Source of the DNA: an uncultured Bacteroidota bacterium
Lineage (GTDB): Bacteria > Bacteroidota > Bacteroidia > Bacteroidales > 4484-276
Assembly (NCBI GenBank): GCA_903944895.1
Contig: CAJATL010000344.1
Span: 1 to 32,667 of the forward strand
Length of the DNA: 32,667 nt
Direction: 5' to 3'
In this document: one piece after another, positions 19,158 through 32,667 of the stretch
How positions within the stretch are numbered: position 1 is the first letter of the stretch
Layout: each line of letters opens with the position of its first letter
The notes under the pieces: model-generated
What the model was told of the DNA's origin: nothing
Databases searched by the model: none
Seen by the model: the letters and a program-made list of their open reading frames with translations, nothing else
Program-made: the position numbers and the translations under genes

Positions 19158-22100
19158 TTATCCTCCCGTTATTCCATTAATAAAGGTATCCACAAAATTC
19201 AATATCTTTTTCAGGATTCGGTCGCCTGTTTTCTTGCGTTCCAAAACTGTTGGTTTGTCGCCTTCGAGTAATTCCAGAATTTCGTCGCGCATAGGTTCTC
19301 TTTCGGCGTATAAATAATCTTCGATGAGTGATTGGGTTTTGTCGGCTGAGAGTTTTTCGTCTTCCACCAATTGATTAAAAGCCTTTTGTTGTTCTTCATT
19401 CCAGAACTTTTCAAATTCCTGAGGGATGTCGTCGGTATCGTCAATTGCAGGTAAATTGTCGAGGATAAATTTCTCAATCAATTCCCGTTTGCTGCGCAAA
19501 TGGGCTTCGGTGTTCAATAAATTGAAGATTTCCTTTTCAGCCTGTGTAACATTGGCCCGTACTTTCGATTTCAGTTTAATGAGCAACTGAAGGATGTAAG
19601 CAACATTGATTTCATCGCGGTGGATAAGCTCCAGTTCGAAGTCAACATCCTCCAAAATCGAAACTTTCTCTTTTTCGTGATCTTTTTTTACCTTATCGTA
19701 AAGGTCGAGATATTTGCTTTTGAAATCCTCAAAAAGCTGTTCGCCCATTTGCAGGTTTTCCCAATTGAAATCAGCAAAAGCCGTGAGGATATTCTTAATC
19801 CGCATCAGTTCCCTGAATGCTTTGATAAATTCCAGCTCGTCATTTTCGCTTTCCAGGTCGTTTACGCTGTTTACCGTTGGTGTAATTTTAAGCAAATCAT
19901 CAAACGCTTCATCGAATTTCCGTACATAATCCTCATAAGGTTTCATTAAAATAACCTCGATGGCTTCCTTGTTGCTGAATAGGGTTATCGCTTCATCGGT
20001 AGCGTTTTTCAGGTTACGGAAAACTACAATATTCCCTTGCGATTTTTGTTCGTTGAGTATCCGGTTGGTTCGCGAATAGGCCTGGATTAGTCCGTGATAC
20101 CTCAGGTTTTTATCAACATACAATGTATTGAGCGGCTTACTGTCGAAGCCCGTGAGATACATATTTACCACCAGCAGAATATCAATTTTACGTTCCTTTA
20201 CTTTCTTTGAAATGTCGTTGTAGTAGTTGTAAAATGATTCGCTGTCGCGGGTCGAGAATTTCGTTTCAAACATTTTGTTGTAATGCTCAATGTACTCATC
20301 CAATTTTTCACGGCTATGCGCATGTAAACCATACAACACTTTCGGGTCTTCGGCTACCGATAATTCTTCGGGAATAAAACCATTTGCGTCGGCATCAGCT
20401 TCGTTGGGGGTGAAACTGAAAATGGTCGCTATTTTTAGGTTGTGTTTCCCTTCTTCTTTTTTCTTTTGGAAAATATCGTAGTATTTTATCAGTGTTTCGA
20501 TACTGCTTACACAAAACAGTGCAGTAAATTCTTTGCTGTGTGTTTTGCGGTTGTGGTTGGCTAAAATGTAATTGGCAATTTTTTCTAACCGCACAGGCGA
20601 TTCCATCAACTCCTTGGTATCAATGTCTTCGACTTCAATATCAATTTCGGTGGCGGGGGTGGGGGTGGTTGTGGAGACGCCGGGGGCGTTGGTGGTGGTT
20701 GTGGAGACGCCGGGGGTGTCGGTGGTGGTTGTGGAGACGCCGGGGGTGTCGGTGGTGGTTGTGGAGACGCCCAATTGGGCGTCTCTACGGTAATAACGGC
20801 CAACATATTCGACGGAAAATTTTAATACATTTTCATCCCTGATGGCATCGGTGATGACATATTTGTGCAGACAATCGCCAAATAATTCTTTGGTGGTGCC
20901 TTTTCGTGAAGACGCGCAATTGTGCGTCTTTACAGTAACGGCATTATCGGCAAAGATTGGCGTACCTGTAAAACCGAACATTTGCGGATTATTGAAAAAC
21001 TTGTTAATCCTACCATGCGTTTCACCAAACTGCGAACGGTGACATTCATCGAAGATGAATACAATTCGTTCGTCTTTTAGCTTTTCCATTTTGCCCAAAT
21101 ACTGCTTTTTGCTGATGGCAGTATTTAGTTTTTGAATGGTGGTAACGATGAGTTTTGTATCGTCCGAAAACTGTCTGACTAAGGTTTTGGTATTGTCGGT
21201 GCCATCAATGCTGCCTTTGCTGAAACTGTTGAACTCTTTGTTGGTTTGATAATCCAGGTCTTTACGGTCAACCACGAAAACAACCTTTTTTACCTTGGGC
21301 AGATTGGTAAGAATTTGACTGGCTTTAAACGAAGTAAGCGTTTTGCCCGAGCCTGTGGTGTGCCAGATATAGCCATTGCTCCGGCTGTGCATTACCTTGT
21401 CAACAAGGGCTTCAACAGCATAATACTGATAAGGCCGCAGAACCATCAATGATTTTTCGGTTTCGTTTAACACAATGTACTTACAAATCATTTTCGACAA
21501 GTGGCATGGCTCTAAAAACTCGCTGGTAAAACCGTTCAGAATATTGGTCAGACGTTTGTTTTCCTTGTCGGTCCAGTAAAAGGTTTGTTTGAACGATTGA
21601 TACCTGTTGTTGGCGTAATACTTTGTGTTTACACCGTTGCTGATTACAAAGATTTGCAGGTATTGAAACAAGGCTGAATTTGCCCCGAACGAATGGCGTT
21701 GATAACGATTGATCTGGTTAAATGCTTCTTTCAGTTCCAGCCCGCGACGTTTTAATTCTATTTGCACCAGCGGCAAACCATTGATCAGCAAAGTAACATC
21801 GTAACGGTTTTTATATTTACCTTCGATGGCAACCTGGTGCGTAACCTGAAACTGGTTTTGGCACCAATGCTCGGTTTGGATAAACTCGAAATACAGGTTA
21901 TCTCCTGTTGTTGAGCCTGCCGAAACATCCCTTACAATATGCTGTTTTTCCCTCAGTGTTTTGGCTTTCTCGAATACGGAGCCTTTGCTCAGGATGTTCA
22001 GGACTCTTTCAAATTCCTTGTCTGAAAACTGAATGTTGTTGTGTTTCTCTAACTGGCTTTTCAGGTTGGCAATCAAATCCTTTTCGTCACGGATAATTAC

Positions 22101-22172
22101 CAGGCTGTAATTGAGCTTTTGCAGTTGCTCGACCAGTTGTTCTTCTAATATTTGTTCGGGTTGTTTAGGCAT
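19158..22172 (-). CDS. hsdR: Type I restriction enzyme R subunit (HsdR)
   Basis: This 1004-residue protein is of normal length. The N-terminal nuclease is D125...IELK (138-141), the PD-(D/E)XK core. The translocase has Walker A TTGSGKT (272-278), DECH (375-378) and FTGTPIF (401-407). The start MPKQPEQ at 22172 was chosen because the 59 residues upstream are the RAYT gene read in another frame. ATG overlaps the RAYT stop by 8 bases, suggesting coupled translation. Oddly, two REP palindromes lie inside the gene in frame: one gives TVKTHNCAS right after FTGTPIFADNA, the other gives DAQLGVST followed by a TPGVSTTTTD tandem (about 463-509) in a spot where relatives have only a short linker. Together with HsdM and HsdS it cuts DNA lacking the methyl mark. 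Whether it is active is not known. Confidence 0.93.
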   Translation of the reverse strand: MPKQPEQILEEQLVEQLQKLNYSLVIIRDEKDLIANLKSQLEKHNNIQFSDKEFERVLNILSKGSVFEKAKTLREKQHIVRDVSAGSTTGDNLYFEFIQTEHWCQNQFQVTHQVAIEGKYKNRYDVTLLINGLPLVQIELKRRGLELKEAFNQINRYQRHSFGANSALFQYLQIFVISNGVNTKYYANNRYQSFKQTFYWTDKENKRLTNILNGFTSEFLEPCHLSKMICKYIVLNETEKSLMVLRPYQYYAVEALVDKVMHSRSNGYIWHTTGSGKTLTSFKASQILTNLPKVKKVVFVVDRKDLDYQTNKEFNSFSKGSIDGTDNTKTLVRQFSDDTKLIVTTIQKLNTAISKKQYLGKMEKLKDERIVFIFDECHRSQFGETHGRINKFFNNPQMFGFTGTPIFADNAVTVKTHNCASSRKGTTKELFGDCLHKYVITDAIRDENVLKFSVEYVGRYYRRDAQLGVSTTTTDTPGVSTTTTDTPGVSTTTTNAPGVSTTTPTPATEIDIEVEDIDTKELMESPVRLEKIANYILANHNRKTHSKEFTALFCVSSIETLIKYYDIFQKKKEEGKHNLKIATIFSFTPNEADADANGFIPEELSVAEDPKVLYGLHAHSREKLDEYIEHYNKMFETKFSTRDSESFYNYYNDISKKVKERKIDILLVVNMYLTGFDSKPLNTLYVDKNLRYHGLIQAYSRTNRILNEQKSQGNIVVFRNLKNATDEAITLFSNKEAIEVILMKPYEDYVRKFDEAFDDLLKITPTVNSVNDLESENDELEFIKAFRELMRIKNILTAFADFNWENLQMGEQLFEDFKSKYLDLYDKVKKDHEKEKVSILEDVDFELELIHRDEINVAYILQLLIKLKSKVRANVTQAEKEIFNLLNTEAHLRSKRELIEKFILDNLPAIDDTDDIPQEFEKFWNEEQQKAFNQLVEDEKLSADKTQSLIEDYLYAEREPMRDEILELLEGDKPTVLERKKTGDRILKKILNFVDTFINGITGG
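20651..20760. repeat. 30-bp minisatellite inside hsdR
   Basis: There are three full 30-base units at 20671-20700, 20701-20730 and 20731-20760 (unit starting GTGGAGACGCCGGGGGTG), with a partial unit before them. Each starts with GTGGAGACGCC, the arm of the REP palindrome that follows at 20761. In hsdR it encodes a ten-residue repeat, TPGVSTTTTD. Confidence 0.92.
20761..20788. repeat. REP palindrome in hsdR (a)
   Basis: The arms are GTGGAGACGCCC and GGGCGTCTCTAC around AATT (28 bases). It is in frame in hsdR, read as DAQLGVST, at the end of the minisatellite. Confidence 0.92.
20906..20933. repeat. Diverged REP palindrome in hsdR (b)
   Basis: The arms are GTGAAGACGCGC and GTGCGTCTTTAC around AATT (28 bases). 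Same length and layout as the other copies, with paired changes. It encodes VKTHNCAS after the FTGTPIF motif. Confidence 0.8.
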
Positions 22173-22794
22173 AAAATTTATCGTCTTTCCAGTTTTGGGG
22201 GTTGTTTGCAATGTAATTCTGTATGCGTTCAAATTCGCCGGAATCACGGATAATATGGTCGTAATAACGGGTTTGCCATTCAAAACCGGCATTGATTTTA
22301 CGGGCATTAATGGTACAAATGCGTTTATATTGGTTAACAATCGAACCAATTGTATTTGGTTTCCATTTTTTTGATGCGGTGGCGGTGGTGGCGTTTTCGT
22401 TGGCGTCGGCGTTGTTGGCGTTTTCGATTGTAGAGACGCCCAATTTGGGCGTCTCTACAGGCGTTTCCATATCCACCGATTTATCAATTATCAAAATCCC
22501 ATGAACGTGATTGGGCATTACCACAAAATTGCCCAATTCGATAAACGGATAATGATTGGGTATTTCCAACCAAAATTGTTCGGCAAAATTTCCGATTTCC
22601 GTCGGTATCATCGTAGATACGCCCAATTTGGGCGTCTCTACCAATTTGGGCGTCTGTACCACGATTTCCCCAAAATAATGAACCCGGTTTTTGGTACAAA
22701 TGGTAATGAAATACGCGCCATTGCGGCCATAATCCCAGGTTTGCAACCTGGCCGATGGTATTCGGTATTTGTTTTTGTATTTATCCATTGTCAT
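22165..22794 (-). CDS. REP-associated tyrosine transposase (RAYT, Y1_Tnp/TnpA_REP)
   Basis: This 209-residue single-strand DNA transposase is of the HUH class. The metal-binding motif is MPNHVHGIL (H96, H98). The likely nucleophile is Tyr156 in IVNQYKRIC. The family ending WQTRYYDHIIRD...IQNYIANNPQNW is intact (173-202). RAYTs are domesticated IS200-like proteins that act on REP palindromes with a 5' GTAG. This gene contains REPs itself: LVETPKLGVST (about 51-61) and VETPKLGVST (113-122), followed by an Asn/Ala/Asp-rich microrepeat (124-140). The start at 22794 (or 22788) overlaps the low-complexity ORF upstream, and the stop overlaps the hsdR ATG (TTTATGCCTAA). An operon position between hsdS and hsdR is unusual. 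Catalytic activity is unproven given two inserts. Confidence 0.9.
   Translation of the reverse strand: MTMDKYKNKYRIPSARLQTWDYGRNGAYFITICTKNRVHYFGEIVVQTPKLVETPKLGVSTMIPTEIGNFAEQFWLEIPNHYPFIELGNFVVMPNHVHGILIIDKSVDMETPVETPKLGVSTIENANNADANENATTATASKKWKPNTIGSIVNQYKRICTINARKINAGFEWQTRYYDHIIRDSGEFERIQNYIANNPQNWKDDKFYA
22430..22458. repeat. REP palindrome in the RAYT gene (a)
   Basis: Perfect arms GTAGAGACGCCC and GGGCGTCTCTAC (29 bases with the centre). It is read as VETPKLGVST in the transposase. Confidence 0.93.
22613..22659. repeat. REP palindrome plus extra half in the RAYT gene (b)
   Basis: A full copy (22613-22641, left arm GTAGATACGCCC) is followed directly by another CAATTTGGGCGTCTGTAC half (22641-22658). 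It is read as QTPKLVETPKLGVST. Confidence 0.9.
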
Positions 22795-23386
22795 TTATTT
22801 TTTGTGGTTGGTATTGGTGGTTTTGGCCACCGTAACCGTGGTGGACGATTTGGCCGCGGTGACCGCGGTCGTCGCCGTGACCGCGGTGGTTGGTTTCGCT
22901 GGGGTATTCGGTTTGTCCGTGGTTGATGATTTGCCCGGGGTGAACGGTTTGGTCGGTTTGTCCGTGGTTGATGATTTGCCCGGGGTGAACGCGGTGGATG
23001 GTTTGGCCGCCGTAACCGTGGTGGACGATTTGCCCGGGGTAATTGGATTGCCCGCGGTAATTGGTATGGCCGGGGTGACCGCGTGGGATGGTTTGCCCGG
23101 GGTAATTGGTTTGCCCGCGGTAATTGGTATGGCCGTGATGGACGGTTTGGCCGGGATAATTGGTATGGCCGGGGGGATCGGTAGAGACGCCCAATTTGGG
23201 CGTCTCTACGAATACGCCGTCCCCGCCGAATACGCCGTCCCCACCGAATACGTCCCCACCGAATACGCCGCCGAACCGAAACCGAAACCGACCGAACCGA
23301 AACCATACCAATCCAATCAATCCCAATCCAATCCATCCCATCCAAACCCAATCCACAAAATCCGTATCCGTTACCATACCATTCAT
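22781..23386 (-). CDS. Doubtful low-complexity ORF between hsdS and RAYT
   Basis: This 201-residue open frame begins 4 bases after the hsdS stop and ends overlapping the RAYT start, so the spacing looks operonic. Its content is repeats: a Trp/Gly-rich opening (DWVWMGWIGLGLIG), a Gly/Phe stretch (FGGDGVFGGDGVF), one REP copy (VETPKLGVST), then six-residue units such as PGQTNY/RGQTNY and HHGYGGQT. The same DNA is also open for a long way in at least two other frames, as expected of GC-skewed tandem DNA without selection. I would not assign a function. It might instead be a non-coding REP/minisatellite spacer. Confidence 0.3.
   Translation of the reverse strand: MNGMVTDTDFVDWVWMGWIGLGLIGLVWFRFGRFRFRFGGVFGGDVFGGDGVFGGDGVFVETPKLGVSTDPPGHTNYPGQTVHHGHTNYRGQTNYPGQTIPRGHPGHTNYRGQSNYPGQIVHHGYGGQTIHRVHPGQIINHGQTDQTVHPGQIINHGQTEYPSETNHRGHGDDRGHRGQIVHHGYGGQNHQYQPQKINDNG
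22800..23370. repeat. Degenerate tandem-repeat block between RAYT and hsdS
   Basis: Nested 9- and 18-base units occur on the plus strand (TTGCCCGGGGTAATTGG, TTGCCCGCGGTAATTGG, GTGGTGGACGATTTG) up to about 23180. Then come a REP copy, GAATACGCCGTCCCC units (23210-23265), ACCGAAACCGAAACC (to about 23310), and ATCCAATCCAATCC-type units. It is an unusually long block of low-complexity DNA. Confidence 0.85.
23181..23209. repeat. REP palindrome in the hsdS-RAYT spacer
   Basis: Perfect copy with arms GTAGAGACGCCC and GGGCGTCTCTAC, inside the tandem-repeat block. Confidence 0.93.
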
Positions 23387-23390
23387 ATTA

Positions 23391-24515
23391 TTAACAAAAC
23401 ATCCGTTGCAACAACCCCTTTTTCCATTCCTGCGTTTTTTGTATCTGGTTTTCGGTGTGGTTTATCTTTTCATCAATGGCTGAAAGGAAATTGGCGATTT
23501 TGGTTTGTTCTTCAAATGAAGGTACACTAATTGGCATTTCAGATATCATTTCTAAACGAACGGAATCAACTGAGTTTTTCGCACTAACTCTTTTTACTCT
23601 ATCATTAAAATATGTTGAGAAATAATAAAATATGAACTTGCCACTAACATTCTGGCCAAAATTTCTTATCGAATAAACCCGTTGATGAAAATCAAATTTT
23701 CCTTTTATATAATGATAATTTTTGCCAACACCAACACCATCACCTGAAGTAAGTATTGCTTCTCCGTCGTATGAATACGAGTTTATCCTTTCAACAGTAT
23801 CAGACCTTACAAAAAATGGATAAAGCCCATCCTTTTCTCTATTCTGAGTGTCTTTATTTCCAGTTTTTATTTCAGAGATGTTCCCCAACTTCTTCTTCTC
23901 CCATTCCGGAAAATCTTTCCCATTCTCATCTTTAAACCTCAATTCCTGCGAAAAGAGTTTTTGCATTATGCCTTTTTTGTATTGCTCCAACAGGGTTTTC
24001 TTTTGTTTGAATTCGGCAATTTTCTTATCAATAGAGGTGAAAAAAGAGGCGATGCGGGTTTGTTCGGGAAGGGTGGGGAAAATATAATCTTCTACCTTTT
24101 CCAAATTTTGAATTGATAATCCTGGTTGAGCTAATCCAGTTGAATACTTATTTAAATTTAAGTTGTTAAGAACATAATACATAAAATCAGTATCTAACCC
24201 TTTAAATAAATTAACTACGACTGCGTGTTCAGTAGCATAAAATTTACCATTTGCAAGATTGATGTTTCCACAAAGAGCTCCCTGTCTTCCTATTAAGGAA
24301 TATTTACCTTCGTGGTTGTACACTTTTGCATATCCTCTAATGCCATTTCCTCCAAAACAGGGATAAAATTTATCATCAATGTTCTCAAATATTTCAGAAG
24401 CATTTATAAATTTTCCTGCTTGCATTTTGCATAATTCCCCAAGTTTCTTCTTTTCCCATTCTCCTTTAAATTCAGGGAAGCGCAATTTTGGTGTGTTTGT
24501 TTGCTTTTCCATCAT
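23391..24515 (-). CDS. hsdS: Type I restriction specificity subunit (HsdS)
   Basis: This 374-residue protein starts at 24515 through a TAATG overlap with the hsdM stop. A start at 24548 would overlap hsdM by 34 bases and is less likely. It has two target-recognition half-units: WEKKKLGELCKMQAGKF opens the first (about residue 19) and WEKKKLGNISEIKTGN opens the second (about 205). Each is followed by a long conserved helix with LPEQTRIASFFTSIDKKI (about 149) and EEQTKIANFLSAIDEKI (about 339). This is the classic two-TRD architecture that recognises a bipartite DNA site. No REP insertion is present, unlike its partners hsdM and hsdR. The C-terminus ends LLQRMFC. Confidence 0.93.
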   Translation of the reverse strand: MMEKQTNTPKLRFPEFKGEWEKKKLGELCKMQAGKFINASEIFENIDDKFYPCFGGNGIRGYAKVYNHEGKYSLIGRQGALCGNINLANGKFYATEHAVVVNLFKGLDTDFMYYVLNNLNLNKYSTGLAQPGLSIQNLEKVEDYIFPTLPEQTRIASFFTSIDKKIAEFKQKKTLLEQYKKGIMQKLFSQELRFKDENGKDFPEWEKKKLGNISEIKTGNKDTQNREKDGLYPFFVRSDTVERINSYSYDGEAILTSGDGVGVGKNYHYIKGKFDFHQRVYSIRNFGQNVSGKFIFYYFSTYFNDRVKRVSAKNSVDSVRLEMISEMPISVPSFEEQTKIANFLSAIDEKINHTENQIQKTQEWKKGLLQRMFC

Positions 24516-26227
24516 TAAAAAGGTGTCGGGATATTGAGTTCTTTGCAAAAACCGGCAATAGCCTTGTCTGTATCTTTCATTTGAGTTTCGAGTCCGACAA
24601 GCTCACCCGCCAGTTTTTCGATATCAATGCTTGTCTCAGCCTCAAAGGTATCAACATAACGCGGAATGTTCAGATTGTAATCGTTTGATTCTATGGTATC
24701 GAGAGGGCCAGATTGGGCTTCACCAGGGAGACGCCCAAATTGGGCATCAACAGGGAGACGCCCAAATTGGGCGTCTGTACGGATAAAAGCCCGTTTGCTA
24801 TATTTGGGGGTTTCGGTGCGGTTGCGGTAGGTGCTGATAATTTTATCAATATGCTCTTCCCTTAAAATATTCTGTGTTTTTACCTTGTCGAAATCGTTGC
24901 TGGCATCAATAAACAACACATCTTCGGGGTTTTCGCGGCACTTTTTAAAAACCATGATACACGTGGGAATACTTGTTCCGTAAAATATATTTGCAGGCAA
25001 GCCAATAACAGCATCTAAGTAATTTTTATCCTCAATCAGATATTTACGGATGTGCTGTTCGGCACCGCCACGGAACAAAGCGCCATGCGGTAAAACAACA
25101 GCCATGATGCCATTTTCGGCAAGGTGGTAAACCATGTGTTGCACAAAAGCAAAATCTGCCTTGCCCGAAGGGGCTAATTTGCCATATTGGCTAAAGCGGT
25201 CGTCGCTTGTAAACAATGGATTTGCGCTCCATTGTGCCGAAAATGGCGGATTGGCAACCACAGCCTCAAATTGTTTTTCGAGATGCTGCGGGTGTTCTAA
25301 AGTGTCCTCCTGCTTGATGTCGAATTTAAGATAATGCACACCGTGCAAAATCATATTCATCCGGGCAAGGTTGTAGGTGGTGCGGTTCATTTCCTGCCCG
25401 TAAAAGTTGTTTACTTCTTTTACTTCCTTTGCCACACGCAGCAACAACGAGCCCGAACCACAGGTTGGGTCGTACACCGATTTGAGTTTACTTTTTCCGG
25501 TGGTTACAATCTTTGCCAAAACCATCGAAACCTGCTGGGGTGTATAAAATTCGCCTGCCTTTTTTCCGGCTCCGCTGGCAAACTGTCCAATCAGGTATTC
25601 GTAGGCATCGCCCAATAAATCTTGCTGAGACGCAATGCGGGAATCTTCTAATTGAAAATCAATTTTGTCGAGGTGCGAAAGCACTTTTGCAATAATTTCG
25701 TTCCGGGCTTCGGGCGTTTTGCCAAGTTTGGTACTGTTCAAATCCATATCCTCAAAGAGGTTATCAAAATCCTCTTCGCTTGCCGTTCCCATTGTGCTGA
25801 GCTGGATATTAATCAGGATTTTTTGTAAATCTTCGAGGATGAAATTATTATCTGTGGAGACGCCCAATTGGGCGTCTGTACTGCCATTGCCATTGCCATT
25901 GCCTCTTTTTGCGATTTCGCTGAATAATTCGGATGGCTTCAGGAAGTATCCCAGCTTTTCGAGCGATTCTTCTTTGATGGCCTCGATGTATTCTTTGCCT
26001 GAGGAGATGCCATATATGGCCTCTGTGCTATCCCGGATGTCGCGGTATTTGATGTGGTCCTGTTTTAAGATGGAATTGGCGTAAATATCCATTTTCTCGG
26101 ACAGGTATTTATAAAAAATAAATCCGAGAATATAATCCCGGAACTCATCAGCATTCATTTTGCCCCGTAATGTGTTGGCAATGTTCCAAAGCTGTTGTTC
26201 TAATGCTTTTTTCTGGTCTTCGCTCAT
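24515..26227 (-). CDS. hsdM: Type I DNA methyltransferase subunit (HsdM)
   Basis: This 570-residue N6-adenine methyltransferase subunit is somewhat longer than usual because of inserts. The N-terminal HsdM domain (LWNIANTLRGKMNADEFRDY, 13-32) is followed by the SAM motif DPTCGSGSLL (253-262) and the catalytic NPPF (326-329). Two REP-derived inserts are in frame: STDAQLGVSTDN (116-127), and a tandem TDAQFGRLPVDAQFGRLP with a decayed third unit EAQSGPL (484-509) near the C-terminus, before NLNIPRYVD. All family motifs lie outside the inserts, so the fold may tolerate them. First gene of the operon hsdM-hsdS-(spacer)-RAYT-hsdR. Confidence 0.94.
   Translation of the reverse strand: MSEDQKKALEQQLWNIANTLRGKMNADEFRDYILGFIFYKYLSEKMDIYANSILKQDHIKYRDIRDSTEAIYGISSGKEYIEAIKEESLEKLGYFLKPSELFSEIAKRGNGNGNGSTDAQLGVSTDNNFILEDLQKILINIQLSTMGTASEEDFDNLFEDMDLNSTKLGKTPEARNEIIAKVLSHLDKIDFQLEDSRIASQQDLLGDAYEYLIGQFASGAGKKAGEFYTPQQVSMVLAKIVTTGKSKLKSVYDPTCGSGSLLLRVAKEVKEVNNFYGQEMNRTTYNLARMNMILHGVHYLKFDIKQEDTLEHPQHLEKQFEAVVANPPFSAQWSANPLFTSDDRFSQYGKLAPSGKADFAFVQHMVYHLAENGIMAVVLPHGALFRGGAEQHIRKYLIEDKNYLDAVIGLPANIFYGTSIPTCIMVFKKCRENPEDVLFIDASNDFDKVKTQNILREEHIDKIISTYRNRTETPKYSKRAFIRTDAQFGRLPVDAQFGRLPGEAQSGPLDTIESNDYNLNIPRYVDTFEAETSIDIEKLAGELVGLETQMKDTDKAIAGFCKELNIPTPF
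24700..24780. repeat. Tandem REP palindromes in the 3' part of hsdM
   Basis: Two head-to-tail copies (about 24725-24752 and 24752-24780, arms GGAGACGCCC and GGGCGTCTGTAC or GGGCATC) and a decayed third (about 24700-24722). They are read on the minus strand as three DAQFGRLP-like repeats. Confidence 0.9.
25854..25881. repeat. REP palindrome in the 5' part of hsdM
   Basis: Arms GTGGAGACGCCC and GGGCGTCTGTAC (28 bases). In hsdM it is read as TDAQLGVST. It sits next to a GCCATT microrepeat coding for GNGNG. Confidence 0.9.
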
Positions 26228-26261
26228 TTTTTAAAATCTCAAAATTCGTTTTATTAAGGCT

Positions 26262-26269
26262 CAAAAGTA
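26262..26269 (-). promoter_or_regulatory. -7 promoter box of the hsd operon
   Basis: It reads TACTTTTG on the minus strand, 34 bases before the hsdM ATG. No clear -33 box. Confidence 0.5.
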
Positions 26270-26592
26270 ACAATTTAGCGCGGGTGCGTAAGGTGGCAAG
26301 AAAAAACAAAGCAAATTCCGGTCAAAGTTGCACCGCAATATCAAAAAGATAGCCTGTAATGTTCCAATGTACAGCTCATTTAGTGCCGTATTTTTGAAAT
26401 TGATGTTTTTTTTGGCAGAAATCACAAAAGTCAAATCACAAATCACAAATTAAATCAAGGAATTATTTGGGTTTTGTCCCGATAGCCCCGATAGCTATCG
26501 GGGGGATGTTATTTGTTATTTCTGGTTTATCCAGGTTAGGTTAATGCTAAAACCTATCAACTGTTTACCTGAAACCGAAAAACCTTTCATTA

Positions 26593-26654
26593 AAAAGGCG
26601 CCCGCCTTTTACATCAAAGGCGCCCGCCTTTTGTAGTAAAGGCGCCCGCCTTTT
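26593..26654. repeat. Three tandem AAAGGCGCCCGCCTTTT hairpins
   Basis: Copies at 26593-26610, 26616-26632 and 26638-26654 have 5-base spacers. Each is a 7-base stem, AAAGGCG/CGCCTTT. They lie just downstream of the second HU gene (minus strand) and may also terminate it. Confidence 0.88.
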
Positions 26655-26687
26655 GGGTAAAAGGTATCGTTCGGTTCACCGGATGTA

Positions 26688-27068
26688 TCATAGCTTATTG
26701 TACTCAACATCCTTTACAGCCTTTTCAAAAAACTGTCCTGGCCTGAATTTGATGTTTGCGTTTTTAATGTTTTTACTGGTAAGTTCGGCAGCAGTATTTA
26801 CGCCTTCGCTGCTTACCGAGAGGCTGAAATAGCCCAATTCGGCAAGCCTGACTATTTTGCCATCGGTGAGTTTTAGGGGTATTACCTGAAGCAGTATTTC
26901 GATAACAGCAGTTACGTCGGCGATACTGAGGGTGCTGATGAGCGAAATTTCGGTTGCCAGGTCGCGCAGGTTGATGTCGCCATTGCTAACAACCTGGGCG
27001 TAGTATTTTACCGGTTCACTTAAATTGTTCGGATTAACCTTTGGCACAGCTATGTAATTGACTGGCAT
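26688..27068 (-). CDS. HU-family DNA-binding protein (Bacteroidota HU-like), copy 2
   Basis: This 126-residue paralogue of the protein at 18524-18904 has identical length. It starts MPVNYIAVPKVNPNN, carries VKYYAQVVSNGDINLRDLA (residues 19-37) and GKIVRLAELGYFSL (72-85), and ends VKDVEYNKL. The start at 27068 follows from alignment with the paralogue; the longer frame to 27113 adds an AT-rich leader. The two HU genes point towards each other from either side of the hsd locus, so they bracket the restriction island. It acts as an architectural nucleoid protein. Confidence 0.9.
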   Translation of the reverse strand: MPVNYIAVPKVNPNNLSEPVKYYAQVVSNGDINLRDLATEISLISTLSIADVTAVIEILLQVIPLKLTDGKIVRLAELGYFSLSVSSEGVNTAAELTSKNIKNANIKFRPGQFFEKAVKDVEYNKL

Positions 27069-27450
27069 AGTAAATTGTAATTTGTTTATTTTTAAATGAT
27101 TAAATAAATACAAGCAAAAATAGAAAAGATTTTGGTTTGGGAATGGAATGAGTTGGCAAAAAGGTTTCGATTGATTTTTTTAATTGAAAAACAAATCAAT
27201 GGATTTGAAAGGGGTTCGCTGGGGTTTAGTGGCTTTTGGTTGTGAAAAAAAGTGGGGTGGAGTGGTTGATTGGCAAAATGGGAGGTGATGGTTGGCGGTA
27301 TGAAATCGTTGGGCATTACGAAACGATTTCCAGTCGAGTTACACGAAAGTTGAAGAAGTCTAAGACCCTTCGCATACTACTGAAACCCTTATTACTGCTT
27401 TACTTTTTATTACCTGCTATGCTTTTTTGTGTTTGTCAACGCAAAAAACT
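27069..27450. other. Gene-less region upstream of the second HU gene
   Basis: Besides the HU promoter box (27115-27122) I see nothing convincing. The short open frames here have no recognisable content. Confidence 0.6.
27115..27122 (-). promoter_or_regulatory. -7 promoter box of the second HU gene
   Basis: TATTTTTG on the minus strand, 47 bases before the ATG at 27068, a spacing similar to the first HU gene. The -33 element is unclear. Confidence 0.5.
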
Positions 27451-28083
27451 TTAGGGTATTACTTGTCTGTTTTTATTGATGAAATTCAAAATAAATTTTG
27501 GTGGATGTTTAGTTAAAATTCCTAAAACAGGTATCAATAAATAAATTAAAACACATGCACCCCAGATAAAACCCCAAGAAAATTTTCTTTTCTCATCCAA
27601 ATAACCTGGTTCATTTTCTGAATAAAAAAATACGTAACCTATAGCTATGAAAATTATTGTAAAAATAAAACCTGCAATATCTAAAAGCAATAATTTATTA
27701 TTATCAAAACAAGAATATGTTACAATATCCCATATAAGATAAGATAGAAATAATAAAAATAAACCAGTAGCGAAAAGAGTAAGAGTGTCTAATTGAAGTA
27801 AAAACCATAATGAAAAAAGTATTGTTTGATTAAATACTCTAATATACCATTCAGATTTATGAACTGTGTCTAGTTTTTTCTGAAAATTATTATCTAGTTC
27901 TGTTTCAATTTCTGTAATATAGTAATAAATGGCATTAAAGAAAATAGCTAAAAATAATAACACCTTTATCAAATCAGGTAGTTTTGAATAAAAACTATTT
28001 TCAAATATGTATATTGTATAAATTCCTGTAAAAACAAATATTAATAAAGATGCTACAGTACTGGGTGTTGGCTTCTGTTTCAT
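27451..28083 (-). CDS. Membrane protein of unknown function in the ECF-Qng1 operon
   Basis: This 210-residue protein has about six hydrophobic segments (for example residues 11-26, 39-56, 85-99, 103-121, 133-153, 168-190) and a central polar stretch (TEIETELDNNFQKKLDTVHKSEWY, residues about 57-80). It begins 12 bases after the Qng1 stop and shares the AT-rich composition of the genes before it, so it is the last gene of that operon. I recognise no family and no motif for catalysis. An accessory part of the transport or salvage system is possible only by association. Confidence 0.65.
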   Translation of the reverse strand: MKQKPTPSTVASLLIFVFTGIYTIYIFENSFYSKLPDLIKVLLFLAIFFNAIYYYITEIETELDNNFQKKLDTVHKSEWYIRVFNQTILFSLWFLLQLDTLTLFATGLFLLFLSYLIWDIVTYSCFDNNKLLLLDIAGFIFTIIFIAIGYVFFYSENEPGYLDEKRKFSWGFIWGACVLIYLLIPVLGILTKHPPKFILNFINKNRQVIP

Positions 28084-28095
28084 ATTACAAGCAAA

Positions 28096-29052
28096 TTAAT
28101 AGGATGTTGTAATTGTTAAATGGTATGGTTTATATATTGGATTTTTAATTTGACTTATCATCCAGAGAAAATCATTAATCTGGTGCGATTCTATTGAAAT
28201 TCCAAGTTTGTTATATTCTTGTTTCATAAGTTCAACAACCCAAATTGCATGCGACCTAATTTCAATTTCTTCCTTACTTCCCTTTTCTATTTGGATTCGG
28301 TTATCAATCAATTTAATTAGTTCATTACTGTAACTAATCATTCCAAATTCTCTTAATATATAGGGGATTTTATAATCTGCACAGGCAGTTATTTTTTCTA
28401 TATTTTGTAATCCTTTTTCTCCATTTTTAATAAGTAAATAATTTAAATCAGCAGCCAGAAGTTGGGCTCTTTTATTAAAATAGACTAATTGATTGTTATA
28501 CATACTAGAATCAGTAAATGATGTAAATTCAGACAATAATATGTTTTGAAGCAAAATAGCATCAAATTTAGCGAACTTTATTAATTCATAGACATCTGAA
28601 TTAAAGCTTTTAATCATTTTAGATGCAACTTCGTTCAGTATTTTAACTCGTTCTTTTTGCAACAATAATTTAGTATCATCTTCTACTATTACATTAAAAT
28701 CTTCAATAGATAATGATTTGAGATATTTAAAGTCTAATAATGCTTTATTGTTTTCTATTGCCTTCGAGATTGCTGCAACCATGCCCCACGAGCCATCAAA
28801 TAATTTGTTTTTGTATGAAATTTGCCATTTTGGAATATGCCAAAAACAAAAACTAATTGAATTTAATAACGTTACAAATTTTAGCTTTTCATTAAAAGCT
28901 AAAGAATCAATAATATTAGGCGATGAAACTAACCAATTAATGTTATTGTCTATGTAATTGTTTTGACAAAAAAACTCAATAGCTTTTCTATTTATAGAAA
29001 TACTATTCGAGTGTGTTATTACATACTCTACTGAATCTAAGACTTTATGCAT
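28096..29052 (-). CDS. Queuosine salvage hydrolase, Qng1/DUF2419 family
   Basis: This 318-residue protein carries several hallmarks of the Qng1 (C9orf64, DUF2419) family, which releases the base queuine from queuosine 5'-monophosphate: ISFCFWH (66-72), FDGSWGMVAAISKAIE (85-100, usually YDGYWALxAALNRAL), AQLLAADLNYLL (196-207), CADYKIPYILREFG (224-237) with the conserved Asp226, EIEIRSHAIWVVELM (262-276) and NDFLWMIS (293-300). The usual length is about 300-340. The start overlaps the stop of the ECF fusion gene by 8 bases. Neighbouring ECF transporter genes suggest imported queuosine or queuine is the source. I did not find tRNA-guanine transglycosylase in the window, so the acceptor enzyme must be elsewhere. 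Confidence 0.85.
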   Translation of the reverse strand: MHKVLDSVEYVITHSNSISINRKAIEFFCQNNYIDNNINWLVSSPNIIDSLAFNEKLKFVTLLNSISFCFWHIPKWQISYKNKLFDGSWGMVAAISKAIENNKALLDFKYLKSLSIEDFNVIVEDDTKLLLQKERVKILNEVASKMIKSFNSDVYELIKFAKFDAILLQNILLSEFTSFTDSSMYNNQLVYFNKRAQLLAADLNYLLIKNGEKGLQNIEKITACADYKIPYILREFGMISYSNELIKLIDNRIQIEKGSKEEIEIRSHAIWVVELMKQEYNKLGISIESHQINDFLWMISQIKNPIYKPYHLTITTSY

Positions 29053-31099
29053 GGTTTAAAGAATTTCGTTTTAATAGTAGGTCTTCAAATTTTACTGTAT
29101 CAAGAACAATTTCTGATTTGTGCATTAAAATGAATCTACTGCACAATGATGCTAATTGATTGTCATGAGTTACAACTAATATTGTTTTACCACGAGTCAA
29201 CAGCTCTTGCATGAAGGAGTGTAGTTTAATAATATTGTATCTATCTAAATAATTAGTTGGCTCATCTAAAATGATTATACTTTTATTATATATATTACTT
29301 GATATTTCCAATAAGCGAACTTTTGAAACAGAAATATCCAAGGTTGACTGATTTTCTGTTAATTGTGACCAATTGAGCATTTCATTTGTAAATTGTTTTT
29401 GTGTTTTCTCATCAACGCCATCATTTTTTAAAGCCAATACAATTTCTTCGCTAGTGTTATCTTCCAATATTTGTTTTGAGCAATCCTGAAAAATCATTCC
29501 AATGCTTTTAAAATTTACTAAAACATCACCAACATCAGGAATCAAAACTTTTGCTAATGTTAGCAATAATGTACTTTTCCCGCTTCCATTATCACCCATG
29601 ATAGCAATACATTGGTTTTGGTAAAAATTACAACTAATATTTGATAATACTTTTTTGTTATCAAATGAAAGAGAGATGTTCCGCATTGATGCAACAGCAT
29701 CTTTATTATTTGTTGAATGGATAAACTGTTTAAGAGAAGGATACGTCAGATTAAGTTTATCAAGTATTTCAATTATTTGTCCATTGCTTGTGGTTATATC
29801 ATGTTTTATTTTACCGTTTTCAAGAAACAGAAATCTATTGATTATTCCATTGTAATAATCAGCATATTGGTCAGTAATAATTATTGTAACTTGCTTCGAT
29901 TCAACAATCTTGTTTAATGCAGTAATAAATGAACTTCTTCCTAATGGGTCAAGTTGTCCTAATGGAGATTCTAAAACTAAGAGTTTTACATTAGAGCATA
30001 ATAAAGATGCCAGAACAACCCGTGCTTGTTCTCCACCAGATAAAGTGTTTGAGTCTCGCTCCCAAAGATGAACTATATCAAGTAGTTCTGAATAATATTT
30101 AATTATTTTATCATCATTGGTTTGAGAAGATAGTTCTTGCTTTACATTTAATCCAATTATCGAATCCGCCGGATTTTCGACAATATATCTTAAATACTTA
30201 TTAATCTCCTTTAACTGAATGTTTGAATTAGGTGATATGTTTGATACTACTACTTCACCATTTATTATATACCCTTCAACTTTAGGAATGTAACCACTTA
30301 TAACTTTTAGTAAAGTCGTTTTCCCACAACCATTATTACCAGAAATAAAAACTACTTCGCCTTTCGAGATTGACAAATTTACTTTTTCAAGAATGGCTTT
30401 ACTATCATAATCATATGAGACAGTTAAATCAGTAATTTCAACTGTACCATTATTATTTTCGTTGCCCTTTTCCTTAAAATTAAAATGACTTTCTCCATTA
30501 TAAGTCATTTTACCGATATTAGTAAAAAACCTATTTAAGACAGCCTTTAAAATTATTATAAGCTGTTTGATTTTTTTTTGAGGATTCTTGGATTTTAAAT
30601 CAAAACCCCTTAGGTACATTGAATAATAAAGCAAAGTAAAATCATGCTTTAGGTTTTGAATCCATTTTAGAAAAACAATTATAGTCTTGTTAAACCTTTT
30701 AATGACATTGATAGAATTATAAACATCATATAGTGAATCAATTGAAGAAAGCCAAGCGAAAGATAAAACTATCATTGCATTCCGTTTTAAAGCACCAATA
30801 ATACCATTATGTAATCCTGTGTCGTTTATTCTAAAAAACAAATAATTATCACTTATTATGGCATTTGGTGAGAAAAGCCAATTGCCTAGAATCATGTAAA
30901 TGGAATTTATTAGTAAAACGTAAAAGAATATCTTTTTAAATACTAGTCTTCGTCCTAATAATAATATCACTATTGAAGAAATGAAAACCGCAAATGAAAT
31001 TTCAAGAGAATTAATAAAAGCAAATAAAGAAGTTGAGATTATTACAAATAATAAACTCACTTTTAGGGGTAAAAGTCTTAATCCGTATCCTTTGGGCAT
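29045..31099 (-). CDS. ECF transporter T-A-A fusion protein
   Basis: This 684-residue fusion has EcfT at about 1-205 (several TM helices, coupling motif LRGF at 163-166). NBD1 follows at about 218-445: Walker A GNNGCGKT (254-261), signature LSGGE (353-357), but Walker B LLVLES (E377-S378 where LLDE is usual) and Asp410 where the switch His is expected. NBD2 is at about 468-675: Walker A GDNGSGKS (502-509), Q538, degenerate signature ISVSK (589-593 in place of LSGGQ), intact Walker B IIILDEP with E613, and His645. The canonical ATP site is therefore NBD2 Walker A/B plus NBD1 signature, and the other site is degenerate. ECF transporters import vitamins and bases using a separate S component, here the gene 18 bases upstream. 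Confidence 0.88.
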   Translation of the reverse strand: MPKGYGLRLLPLKVSLLFVIISTSLFAFINSLEISFAVFISSIVILLLGRRLVFKKIFFYVLLINSIYMILGNWLFSPNAIISDNYLFFRINDTGLHNGIIGALKRNAMIVLSFAWLSSIDSLYDVYNSINVIKRFNKTIIVFLKWIQNLKHDFTLLYYSMYLRGFDLKSKNPQKKIKQLIIILKAVLNRFFTNIGKMTYNGESHFNFKEKGNENNNGTVEITDLTVSYDYDSKAILEKVNLSISKGEVVFISGNNGCGKTTLLKVISGYIPKVEGYIINGEVVVSNISPNSNIQLKEINKYLRYIVENPADSIIGLNVKQELSSQTNDDKIIKYYSELLDIVHLWERDSNTLSGGEQARVVLASLLCSNVKLLVLESPLGQLDPLGRSSFITALNKIVESKQVTIIITDQYADYYNGIINRFLFLENGKIKHDITTSNGQIIEILDKLNLTYPSLKQFIHSTNNKDAVASMRNISLSFDNKKVLSNISCNFYQNQCIAIMGDNGSGKSTLLLTLAKVLIPDVGDVLVNFKSIGMIFQDCSKQILEDNTSEEIVLALKNDGVDEKTQKQFTNEMLNWSQLTENQSTLDISVSKVRLLEISSNIYNKSIIILDEPTNYLDRYNIIKLHSFMQELLTRGKTILVVTHDNQLASLCSRFILMHKSEIVLDTVKFEDLLLKRNSLNHA

Positions 31100-31117
31100 T
31101 TGGCTTTGCTTGTGTTT

Positions 31118-31879
31118 TTAAAGTGAGCAAAGTCCCATCTTTCTTGCTCTTTCAGTAAAATATGCAAGCATGTACAATCCTAAGAAGCAAGATACTGTAT
31201 CTCCTAAAAACCAACCCAATCCAGTTCCTAATAATGCACCTTCCCATGTATTCCCACCTATTTTAACTCCAAGACTGCCGATGACAGCACTTATTGCACT
31301 AATAATAACACAAAATAAAGCTGCTAATAAAAAATCGCCTTTGTTGATTTTAATATTCCATAGAATAAAAGGCATTCCAACTAATAATACAAAAATGGCA
31401 ATTACATAAGCCCAAACACCTATATTGCTTATAAATAAAGGTAAAATTCCAATTCCAATCACGAACAATAGAACAATTGAAATCCGAATAACTGCTGTTT
31501 TTATAGCCTTAGTCTCTGCACCAAAATCAGGGTTTATCTTAAACCAACTAAATAAAATTGCCGGTAGCCAAGCATTAGCAATACCACCAGCAATTGGATT
31601 CATAATAATGTCAACTAAGCCCCATCCTCCATAAGCGATTATTCCAGCTGCATATGCACCTAACCCACCAGCTAAAAGACCCCTTGTTGGACCAAACCAA
31701 ACACCTGCAATAAGTTGTAATGCGGCAGGTATCCATAGCATTGCTGCACCTTTCATCTGAGGGCTGCTGGTTAATGTCATCATAAAAGCACCAATTACTG
31801 CTATCAATACAGCAAAAACTATTGCACCATAAGTTTTCATGCTTTCATCTCTGTTCGGATTAACTTTTGTTCTTTCCAT
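31118..31879 (-). CDS. ECF transporter substrate-binding S component (possible queuosine/queuine type)
   Basis: This 253-residue membrane protein has about six helices. GAIVFAVLIAVIGAF near the N-terminus and AALQLIAGVWFGPTRGLLAGGLGAYAAG (about 52-79) recall the S-component fold, which holds a small substrate within the membrane. The open frame continues upstream to a TTG at 31897, but ATG at 31879 (MERTKVN) was chosen because the TTG overlaps a promoter-like box. Neighbour order (S, T-A-A, Qng1) points to queuosine or a related base as substrate, as in the reported Qrt transporters; the sequence alone does not prove this. Other vitamins remain possible. Confidence 0.7.
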   Translation of the reverse strand: MERTKVNPNRDESMKTYGAIVFAVLIAVIGAFMMTLTSSPQMKGAAMLWIPAALQLIAGVWFGPTRGLLAGGLGAYAAGIIAYGGWGLVDIIMNPIAGGIANAWLPAILFSWFKINPDFGAETKAIKTAVIRISIVLLFVIGIGILPLFISNIGVWAYVIAIFVLLVGMPFILWNIKINKGDFLLAALFCVIISAISAVIGSLGVKIGGNTWEGALLGTGLGWFLGDTVSCFLGLYMLAYFTERARKMGLCSL

Positions 31880-31894
31880 GATATTCTTTTTTTT

Positions 31895-31902
31895 CAAAAT
31901 TA
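31895..31902 (-). promoter_or_regulatory. Possible -7 promoter box of the ECF-Qng1 operon
   Basis: TAATTTTG on the minus strand, 15 bases before the ATG at 31879. It gives a very short leader and no clear -33 box is seen; if real, no upstream riboswitch would be transcribed. Confidence 0.35.
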
Positions 31903-31947
31903 CAAATCTTTTTTCAAACTATTCATTCTTTACAGAGCTGTTTTTTT

Positions 31948-32307
31948 TTAGCGTTGAAGGTAACTTGTAAACAGCTGGAGATACATGTTACTTTTTGCCA
32001 TTAATTTCAAAATTAGATTGGTGTTATCAAAACCCCGGGCAAAAAGTACAAACCCAACCCCAGGTTTTGTTGAAGAATAATTAAGTATTTCGGTTCTAGT
32101 GGCGGTTACTGTTTTCCATTGGTAGTTTTCACTGTTGCAATCAACCCACAGGCAATCGCCGGCAAAACTAAGCGTGCAATAGGGCTTTGGCCTAATCTGG
32201 TTCAGGATTTTATCATACCTGGAACCAATCCCGGTAAGGAATCGGTTTTTAAGCAGCATTTGATAAACAGTAAGCATTTTGGAAACCATAAATTTTTTGA
32301 ACGTCAT
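31948..32307 (-). CDS. Hypothetical protein, doubtful
   Basis: A 119-residue open frame with a plausible amino-acid composition. The middle (PKPYCTLSFAGDCLWVDC, about residues 41-58) has two Cys pairs and aromatic residues. Internal ATGs at several places (MVSKMLTVYQM) leave the start open. No domain is recognised, and no promoter box or operon partner is seen. It could be a fragment of a lost gene. Confidence 0.35.
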   Translation of the reverse strand: MTFKKFMVSKMLTVYQMLLKNRFLTGIGSRYDKILNQIRPKPYCTLSFAGDCLWVDCNSENYQWKTVTATRTEILNYSSTKPGVGFVLFARGFDNTNLILKLMAKSNMYLQLFTSYLQR

Positions 32308-32494
32308 TTTAAAGAAGTGGCAAAGCTATGTTTGATTTTTGGGAATAACAAGTATTGTTTGGAAAAAGTGAAGAAATGTTTTGGTTTGGGGAGTACAATC
32401 GTTATCCTTTCTGGTAATCAATAGCTTTGCACTATCAGGCAAGAACCACTCTTTGAGCGGCCTGGGATAAAAACATCTAATTTTTAAACGAAAA

Positions 32495-32535
32495 AAAACC
32501 TGACCAGTTTTTGTCTCCGGCCAGGTTTTAATTTT
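32495..32535. terminator. Probable bidirectional terminator hairpin
   Basis: AAAACCTG pairs with CAGGTTTT across a 17-base loop with inner CC/GG pairs. A-rich and T-rich flanks make it usable from both sides. Confidence 0.5.
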
Positions 32536-32563
32536 AAATGGTTTGTGTACGGTTAAATTTTTT

Positions 32564-32591
32564 AGATTCCTCACTTCGTTCGGAATGACAC
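32564..32591. repeat. CCTCACTTCGTTCGGAATG dispersed repeat
   Basis: This word (reverse: CATTCCGAACGAAGTGAGG) is a familiar dispersed element in Bacteroidota intergenic DNA; translated, it gives the false peptide VIPNEVRNL. One copy here. Confidence 0.6.
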
Positions 32592-32619
32592 AGTATTTGG
32601 AGTATTTTGGGAGGGAGGG

Positions 32620-32648
32620 GGTTGGCGGCGGCGAAGCCGCCACCAACC
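32620..32648. repeat. GC-rich palindrome
   Basis: GGTTGG-GGCGGC-GAA-GCCGCC-CCAACC layout with one or two unpaired bases. It is flanked by G-rich and C-rich tracts. Confidence 0.7.
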
Positions 32649-32667
32649 CCCACCCAAAACAACGATA

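Follow-up and report, generated by a model that had tools for sequence, protein, structure and literature searches.

A candidate ECF-type uptake cassette with a Qng1 family protein in a Bacteroidota genome

Experiments on C. difficile have shown that S (substrate-binding) components of energy-coupling factor (ECF) transporters can carry precursors of queuosine (Q) (PMC11570991). The S components QueT and QrtT are established importers of such precursors. In a survey of the gene neighbourhoods of tRNA-guanine transglycosylase (TGT), Qng1, and QueK, QrtT and an untested ATP-binding cassette (ABC) family (PF00005) were among the transporter candidates, and QPTR and QrtT dominated five of the seven Q-salvage clusters in which they occurred (PMC11130926, section 2.2). 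Here, a related locus is described in a stretch of 32,667 nucleotides (the window; contig CAJATL010000344.1 of assembly GCA_903944895.1) from an uncultured Bacteroidota bacterium. Four intact, co-directed genes on its minus strand (31879-27451) encode, in this order, a putative ECF S component, a single-chain T-A-A protein in which a T domain is fused to two ATPase (A) domains, a Qng1 protein, and a protein with six hydrophobic segments (Table 1). The locus is interpreted, with a probability of about 0.58, as a cassette for the uptake and hydrolysis of queuosine-type nutrients that was acquired horizontally; this figure applies to the acquisition jointly with the explanation as a whole.

The QueT/QrtT-type system of C. 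difficile, with a queuosine hydrolase, an ECF S component, and a queuine lyase, resembles the locus in pairing an ECF-type motor with a gene for a queuosine glycosidase and in its inferred task. The two differ in the hydrolase (QueK in C. difficile, Qng1 here) and in the motor, whose A, A', and T parts are separate proteins in C. difficile (PMC11570991) and a single chain here. In addition, the S protein was not recognised by the QueT/QrtT family model (PF12822), and no queuine lyase was recognised in the cassette, in searches that did not include QueL itself. Plasmid-borne operons (L132-L135; L and G numbers are working labels of loci and genomes) contain, as annotated, the same S, T, and tandem ATPase components, with T encoded separately, whereas T is fused to the ATPases and one ATP site is degenerate in the window protein. 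A combination of one consensus and one degenerate composite site is also found in type I ABC exporters with a degenerate nucleotide-binding site (PMC7756269; PMC9898250), a likeness of mechanism to an ECF importer from which no kinship is claimed. The Qng1 protein shares the whole fold, the equivalents of K199 and D231, and all invariant columns with the enzymes of Sphaerobacter thermophilus (7u07, 7u91) and human (7ugk), and differs from the Sphaerobacter enzyme at an identity of 28% to 32%. The locus is thus of a known kind and is a variant in its S family, its one-chain T-A-A protein, and its ATP-site asymmetry.

A Qng1 family protein in a four-gene cassette

The assignment of the third gene product to the Qng1 family was firm. 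Its match to PF10343 (Pfam) reached 195.6 bits against a cut-off of 25, and searches of the Protein Data Bank (PDB) returned the Sphaerobacter enzyme (7u07, E 4e-43) and the human enzyme (E 3.3e-31). The residues mutated in PDB entries 7u5a and 7ulc, K199 and D231 of the Sphaerobacter enzyme, have K194 and D226 as their counterparts here. Compared with 44 other Qng1 sequences, the protein kept 36 of the 42 alignment columns that were at least 90% conserved, including every fully invariant column. An AlphaFold model built on a 32-row alignment had a mean confidence (pLDDT) of 93.9, and the top Foldseek match of this model was the complex with queuosine 5'-monophosphate (7u91; TM score 0.92, rmsd 1.8). 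Profile, sequence, invariant residues, and predicted fold were thus in agreement, and glycosidase activity of the protein is predicted on this basis.

Base composition set the four genes apart from the rest of the window. GC content at third codon positions (GC3) was 0.23 for the S gene, 0.21 for the T-A-A gene, 0.22 for the Qng1 gene, and 0.15 for the last gene, as compared to 0.31-0.49 in the 11 other window genes measured and to 0.42 and 0.46 in the open reading frames (ORFs) flanking the cassette on either side. Overall GC content was approximately 0.26-0.30 over most of the cassette, with a sharp step, and the cassette is therefore foreign by base composition. The S and T-A-A genes are separated by 18 bases, the T-A-A and Qng1 genes overlap by 8 bases, and 12 bases separate the Qng1 gene from the last gene. 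Because of the overlap and the common low GC3 (0.15-0.23), the four genes appear to form one unit of one origin, and they are presumed to be co-expressed. The S gene was taken to start at the ATG at 31879; a TTG listed as ORF start at 31897 lies six codons (18 bases) upstream.

Table 1. Features of the cassette in the 32,667-nucleotide window
Feature	Position	Strand	Description
Foreign four-gene cassette	27451..31879	-	drop in GC3 and GC
Putative ECF S (substrate-binding) component	31118..31879	-	253 aa; first gene; no family match over cut-off
T-A-A protein	29045..31099	-	684 aa, single chain
T (EcfT/CbiQ-like) domain	30440..31099	-	220-residue stretch scanned; PF02361 E 8e-5, under cut-off
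Tandem ECF-type ATPase domains of T-A-A	29045..30439	-	TIGR04520 E 1.8e-56
Qng1 (DUF2419, queuosine 5'-monophosphate glycosidase family)	28096..29052	-	318 aa; PF10343 E 1.7e-57
Protein of no recognised family, six hydrophobic segments	27451..28083	-	210 aa

Among the genomes searched, Qng1 was confined to the present one, both in 197 relatives (1/197) and in a sample of the phylum (1/395). In the phyla of G630 and G620, PF10343 was found in one genome out of 392 each, in both cases the centre genome itself, and these two sets were probably one common sample. Searches with exact peptide patterns yielded no close Qng1 relatives. A wider scan with two peptide patterns provided 47 Qng1 loci, which constitute a sample rather than a census. 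Across the genomes and loci sampled, the cassette arrangement was a singleton. A mobile-element, phage, or plasmid carrier was considered and set aside, as the Qng1 protein had no match in plasmids, phages, or viral contigs.

These results bear on an interpretation made earlier from the sequence alone (the sequence-only reading), which had described the locus as a Bacteroidota arrangement of an ECF importer and a Qng1 hydrolase followed by a six-helix protein. Its gene order and its 18-base and 8-base-overlap junctions were confirmed, all four ORFs being intact, as was the presence of a genuine Qng1 gene in an operon with T-like and ECF-type ATPase domains. The importer assignment was supported for the ATPase domains, tentatively for the T-like domain, and not for the S component, which sequence comparison did not identify. 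The attribution of the arrangement to the Bacteroidota was not supported, given the rarity of Qng1 in the phylum and the foreign composition.

The closest relatives of the window Qng1 (40-42% identity) occurred in metagenome-assembled genomes (MAGs) labelled Moraniibacteriota, Peregrinibacteria, Nanoarchaeota, and Woesearchaeota. In a phylogenetic tree, the window protein was sister to these proteins (support 97/87) on a branch of length 1.5. Because of this long branch, and because the tree program flagged the sequence for its length and letter composition, its position in the tree is unsure. In the same tree, highly similar Qng1 proteins (end branches 0.02-0.15) were present in MAGs labelled Patescibacteria and DPANN archaea (L005-L010), which reflects either cross-domain transfer or binning error. 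A distant Qng1-like protein with a cysteine-rich tail (L002:1207-2301) matched PF10343 at 26 bits, with a cut-off of 25, and had no NCBIfam match; an ORF upstream of it appears to resemble a xanthine-dehydrogenase-type molybdenum enzyme.

Importer components and ATP sites

The ATPase part of the T-A-A protein was recognised as ECF-type. Its best NCBIfam matches were TIGR04520 (ECF_ATPase_1) and TIGR04521 (ECF_ATPase_2, E 2.3e-55), with 191.6 and 187.6 bits, respectively, which are below the equivalog cut-offs of 315 and 330. The N-terminal part resembled a T domain, with a match to PF02361 (CbiQ/EcfT) over 176 residues that, at 22.8 bits, fell just under the 25-bit cut-off. Searched alone, this part retrieved no useful PDB chain. 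When aligned with four T proteins from the plasmid ECF operons (L132-L135) and read by eye, it showed an arginine in the first X-R-X motif of the coupling helices (LRG) and a histidine in the second, and the E. faecalis reference T protein likewise lacked the second arginine, having lysine instead. Among the matches listed (20 of 21), plasmid ECF ATPases covered no more than 66% of the T-A-A protein. To the sequence-only reading, the arrangement with a single-chain T-A-A unit and an extra membrane protein had looked little described. ECF S components near Q-salvage genes have already been published (PMC11130926). A literature search of partial coverage returned A-A fusions and no T-A-A fusion or degenerate ECF site; no priority is claimed.

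The two nucleotide-binding domains (NBD1 and NBD2) differed in the motifs they retained. NBD1 kept the LSGGE signature, had LLVLES in place of a canonical Walker B motif, and lacked the H-loop histidine; NBD2 kept IIILDEP and VTHD, with ISVSK at the signature position. Three tandem ECF proteins served as references, and each of their six ATPase domains had a Walker B DEP, an [LI]S[GH]GQ signature, and the H-loop histidine. The E. faecalis tandem ATPase was left out of this alignment because its second Walker A was missed by the cut-out pattern; it has DEP in both Walker B motifs, and the pattern found one of its two signatures. For a Bipolaricaulota tandem ATPase (L011), the pattern returned no Walker B and one signature, which made this protein unusable as a control either way. 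By analogy with the head-to-tail architecture of ABC ATPases, every one of these losses would affect a single composite ATP site, and the second site would be unimpaired. In the ECF module of L. delbrueckii, a change of either Walker B glutamate abolished transport and reduced ATPase activity to background (PMC10368641). In view of this requirement, the window motor either works with one hydrolytic site or is dead, and the clustering of the losses at a single site favours the former; the protein may thus be an active, asymmetric motor.

The first gene product showed no match over cut-off in Pfam or NCBIfam and no match in the PDB, and Pfam models for QueT other than PF12822 did not match it either. 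In alignments with four ECF S components, block-wise shuffles scored as well as the protein itself in 2 of 500 cases for one component and in 83, 112, and 191 of 500 cases for the others. A simple scan indicated four clear hydrophobic segments. A single-sequence AlphaFold model was poor (pLDDT 55), and a fold search with it gave a best E of 0.33. Besides the window itself, no match above 16.7 bits was found in 295 relatives (E <=0.1) or in the 47 Qng1 genomes (E <=1); plasmids gave no match and viral contigs a single match of 47 residues. Since the protein lacks family and PDB matches, and only one of four alignments exceeded the shuffles, its putative designation as S component draws on its place in the gene order, together with its size and that one weak alignment. 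For the same reason, as no known queuosine S family was matched, its proposed substrate follows from gene position alone. The last protein of the cassette had a best PDB match at E 0.18 and no match in plasmids or viral contigs; in the family libraries searched, it gave no match over cut-off, and whole genomes were not searched with it.

Host queuosine pathway and weighing of the explanations

The host MAG (7.17 Mb, 424 contigs, estimated 96.39% complete, 4.21% contaminated) encodes one TGT, two QueA proteins, QueG, and a QPTR transporter that scored over its cut-off, as well as QueE-like and QueD-like proteins (L085, L088, L089) below equivalog cut-offs. QueC had no match in the host and no full-length match in 12 members of its family (weak partial matches in 4), and was found at full length in 9 of 40 relatives. 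QueF had no match in the host either and none over cut-off in the 12 family members (weak matches in 7), and exceeded the cut-off in 11 of the 40 relatives. De novo Q synthesis was therefore not supported for the host. The pattern of queA, queG, and tgt, with queC and queF undetected, fits a pathway variant for preQ1 salvage that consists of queA, queG/H, and tgt (PMC6593275). Together with QPTR and the QueE-like and QueD-like proteins, it indicates that preQ1 salvage is to be expected in this organism without the cassette; the retained QueE-like and QueD-like proteins possibly serve another product or a replacement step. The sequence-only reading had proposed a search for tgt and for the absence of queC, queD, queE, and queF; the host agreed with this pattern for tgt, queC, and queF and disagreed for the QueE-like and QueD-like proteins. 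A full de novo pathway, which that reading had named, in combination with a missing salvage phenotype, as speaking against its interpretation, was not seen. Its description of the operon as self-contained was not upheld, as the cassette encodes neither a TGT nor another base-using enzyme and the pocket of the host TGT is of the preQ1 type (GGLSVG). The second QueA-like protein of the host (L084:1138-2364, 408 aa) exceeded the cut-offs of two NCBIfam models for QueA.

In the proposed mechanism, a compound of the queuosine family, be it queuosine itself, queuine, or a nucleotide form, would be captured by the S component. Its import would be powered by the T-A-A protein, a single-chain motor that is dedicated to this task and has one hydrolytic ATP site. 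Qng1 would then cut the N-glycosidic bond to yield queuine, which might reach tRNA at low efficiency via the host TGT, or after conversion to preQ1 by a further enzyme such as a lyase.

Several observations weighed against this mechanism. At E 1e-3, relatives of the S or six-helix protein were found in none of the 47 Qng1 loci, many of which were cut by contig ends, and the T part of the T-A-A protein had no match in them, so that conserved linkage provided no support; in five loci (L011, L017, L021, L033, L046), ABC-type matches to the T-A-A protein were confined to its ATPase part. PF12822 was not among the matches of the S protein up to E 10, a negative limited by the HMMER filters, which discard most matches above E ~0.1. 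No preQ1 riboswitch was found within 26000-32667. Qng1 activity is reportedly highest on the 5'-monophosphate, and this preference would call for a nucleotide substrate or for a kinase. One ATP site of the motor lacks residues needed in the characterised L. delbrueckii module (PMC10368641). Finally, the host TGT, of which no second copy was found, combines GGLSVG with FDECTP and does not match the pocket GG[LS][AS]G of queuine-salvaging TGTs, to which GGLAVG of the E. coli type has been contrasted (PMC11570991). With no TGT in the cassette and a preQ1-type pocket in the host, queuine would have no clear user.

The weight of the last point was assessed from TGTs that accompany Qng1 elsewhere. 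Of the 47 genomes from which Qng1 loci had been fetched, 43 had a TGT match, and the pocket was read in 41 of these 43 (no readable frame in G592; G625 left out; not every copy read). In 13 of the 41, one or more TGTs had a shortened loop, for example GGSLG. A TGT gene followed Qng1 within the stretch fetched in 10 of the 47 loci, and all ten encoded a shortened loop (GGSLG, GGSVG, or GGALG). The GGLSVG loop of the host TGT was found in many Qng1 genomes, including Sphaerobacter, and a preQ1-type loop is thus compatible with queuine use. The cysteine of the FDECTP site, kept by the host TGT, is missing from the TGTs of Sphaerobacter and Thermomicrobium relatives. In the six genomes that the Qng1 tree placed nearest, three TGTs were read and showed no short loop (two had odd and diverged motifs, one had GGLSVG); of the remaining genomes, one had an unreadable TGT and two had no TGT match. 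A loose specificity has been demonstrated for the B. henselae TGT at high concentration (PMC11570991).

A more specific form of the interpretation, in which the cassette encodes an ECF importer that serves queuosine or queuosine monophosphate, has a single hydrolytic site, a one-chain T-A-A' motor, and an S component belonging to a new family, and is coupled to Qng1, is tentative and, taken with all its parts, rather doubtful. If correct, it would extend the division into consensus and degenerate ATP sites from ABC exporters to ECF transporters and define a new class of Q importers. With its link to Qng1 and a putative S protein outside the known families, this ECF system is a concrete candidate, and its naturally degenerate ATPase offers a test of the need for two hydrolytic sites in ECF transport. 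The host raises the question of queuine use by a bacterium with a preQ1-type TGT.

Unlikely, yet the strongest of the rival explanations, is that the importer carries another micronutrient or a purine, with Qng1 as a passenger or as part of another route and the linkage accidental. It accords with the failure of the S protein to match any Q-type family, with the importer-Qng1 linkage having been met once and in none of the 47 other Qng1 loci, and with the presence in the host of a QPTR transporter and a preQ1-type TGT. The 8-base overlap of the T-A-A and Qng1 genes and the common foreign composition, however, argue for a co-inherited unit, and a pattern of ECF S components next to genes for Q salvage has been published (PMC11130926). 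Less probable still is a cassette that is decaying, arrived recently as a non-functional insertion, or is DNA of another organism joined by misassembly, as the lost ATPase motifs (whose loss, at either Walker B glutamate, inactivates the characterised ECF module; PMC10368641), the sharp GC step, the start of the cassette 788 bases from the contig end, the contamination estimate of the MAG, and the lack of a close relative in the collections searched would allow, but four open frames, a Qng1 with every fully invariant residue, motif losses that, lying on one composite site, look like co-adaptation rather than random decay, and the GC3 of the ORFs on either side speak against it. The uptake-and-hydrolysis interpretation is preferred.

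Two side observations concern the TGTs. Loci with Qng1 and a short-loop TGT (L012, L013, L015, L018, L020, L021, L023, L025, L027, L034) form a recurring two-gene queuine unit. The host TGT (L003:1471-2601), inspected by eye, seemingly lacks the cysteine zinc-site pattern of the E. coli TGT, an absence that is possibly usual for the phylum.

Surroundings of the cassette

Upstream of the S gene, the two-box pattern of Bacteroidota-type promoters was absent. A single -7-like box (TAATTTTG, 31902-31895) was present; shuffled sequences held such a box at least as often as the window did, and the promoter assignment was dropped. Short direct repeats across the cassette were judged, with no control run, to be at chance level for AT-rich DNA and were not used. 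A role in defence was considered and rejected, as PADLOC returned only generic ATPase matches, to the T-A-A protein, among the four proteins.

Downstream, the cassette is followed by an HU-like gene and then by a type I restriction-modification locus (hsdM, hsdS, hsdR; 19158-26227), in which an IS200-like transposase ORF (22165-22794) overlaps the start of the listed hsdR ORF. Between the HU-like gene and hsdM, a unit with GGCGCCCGCC occurs in three copies, 22 bases apart (26583-26664).

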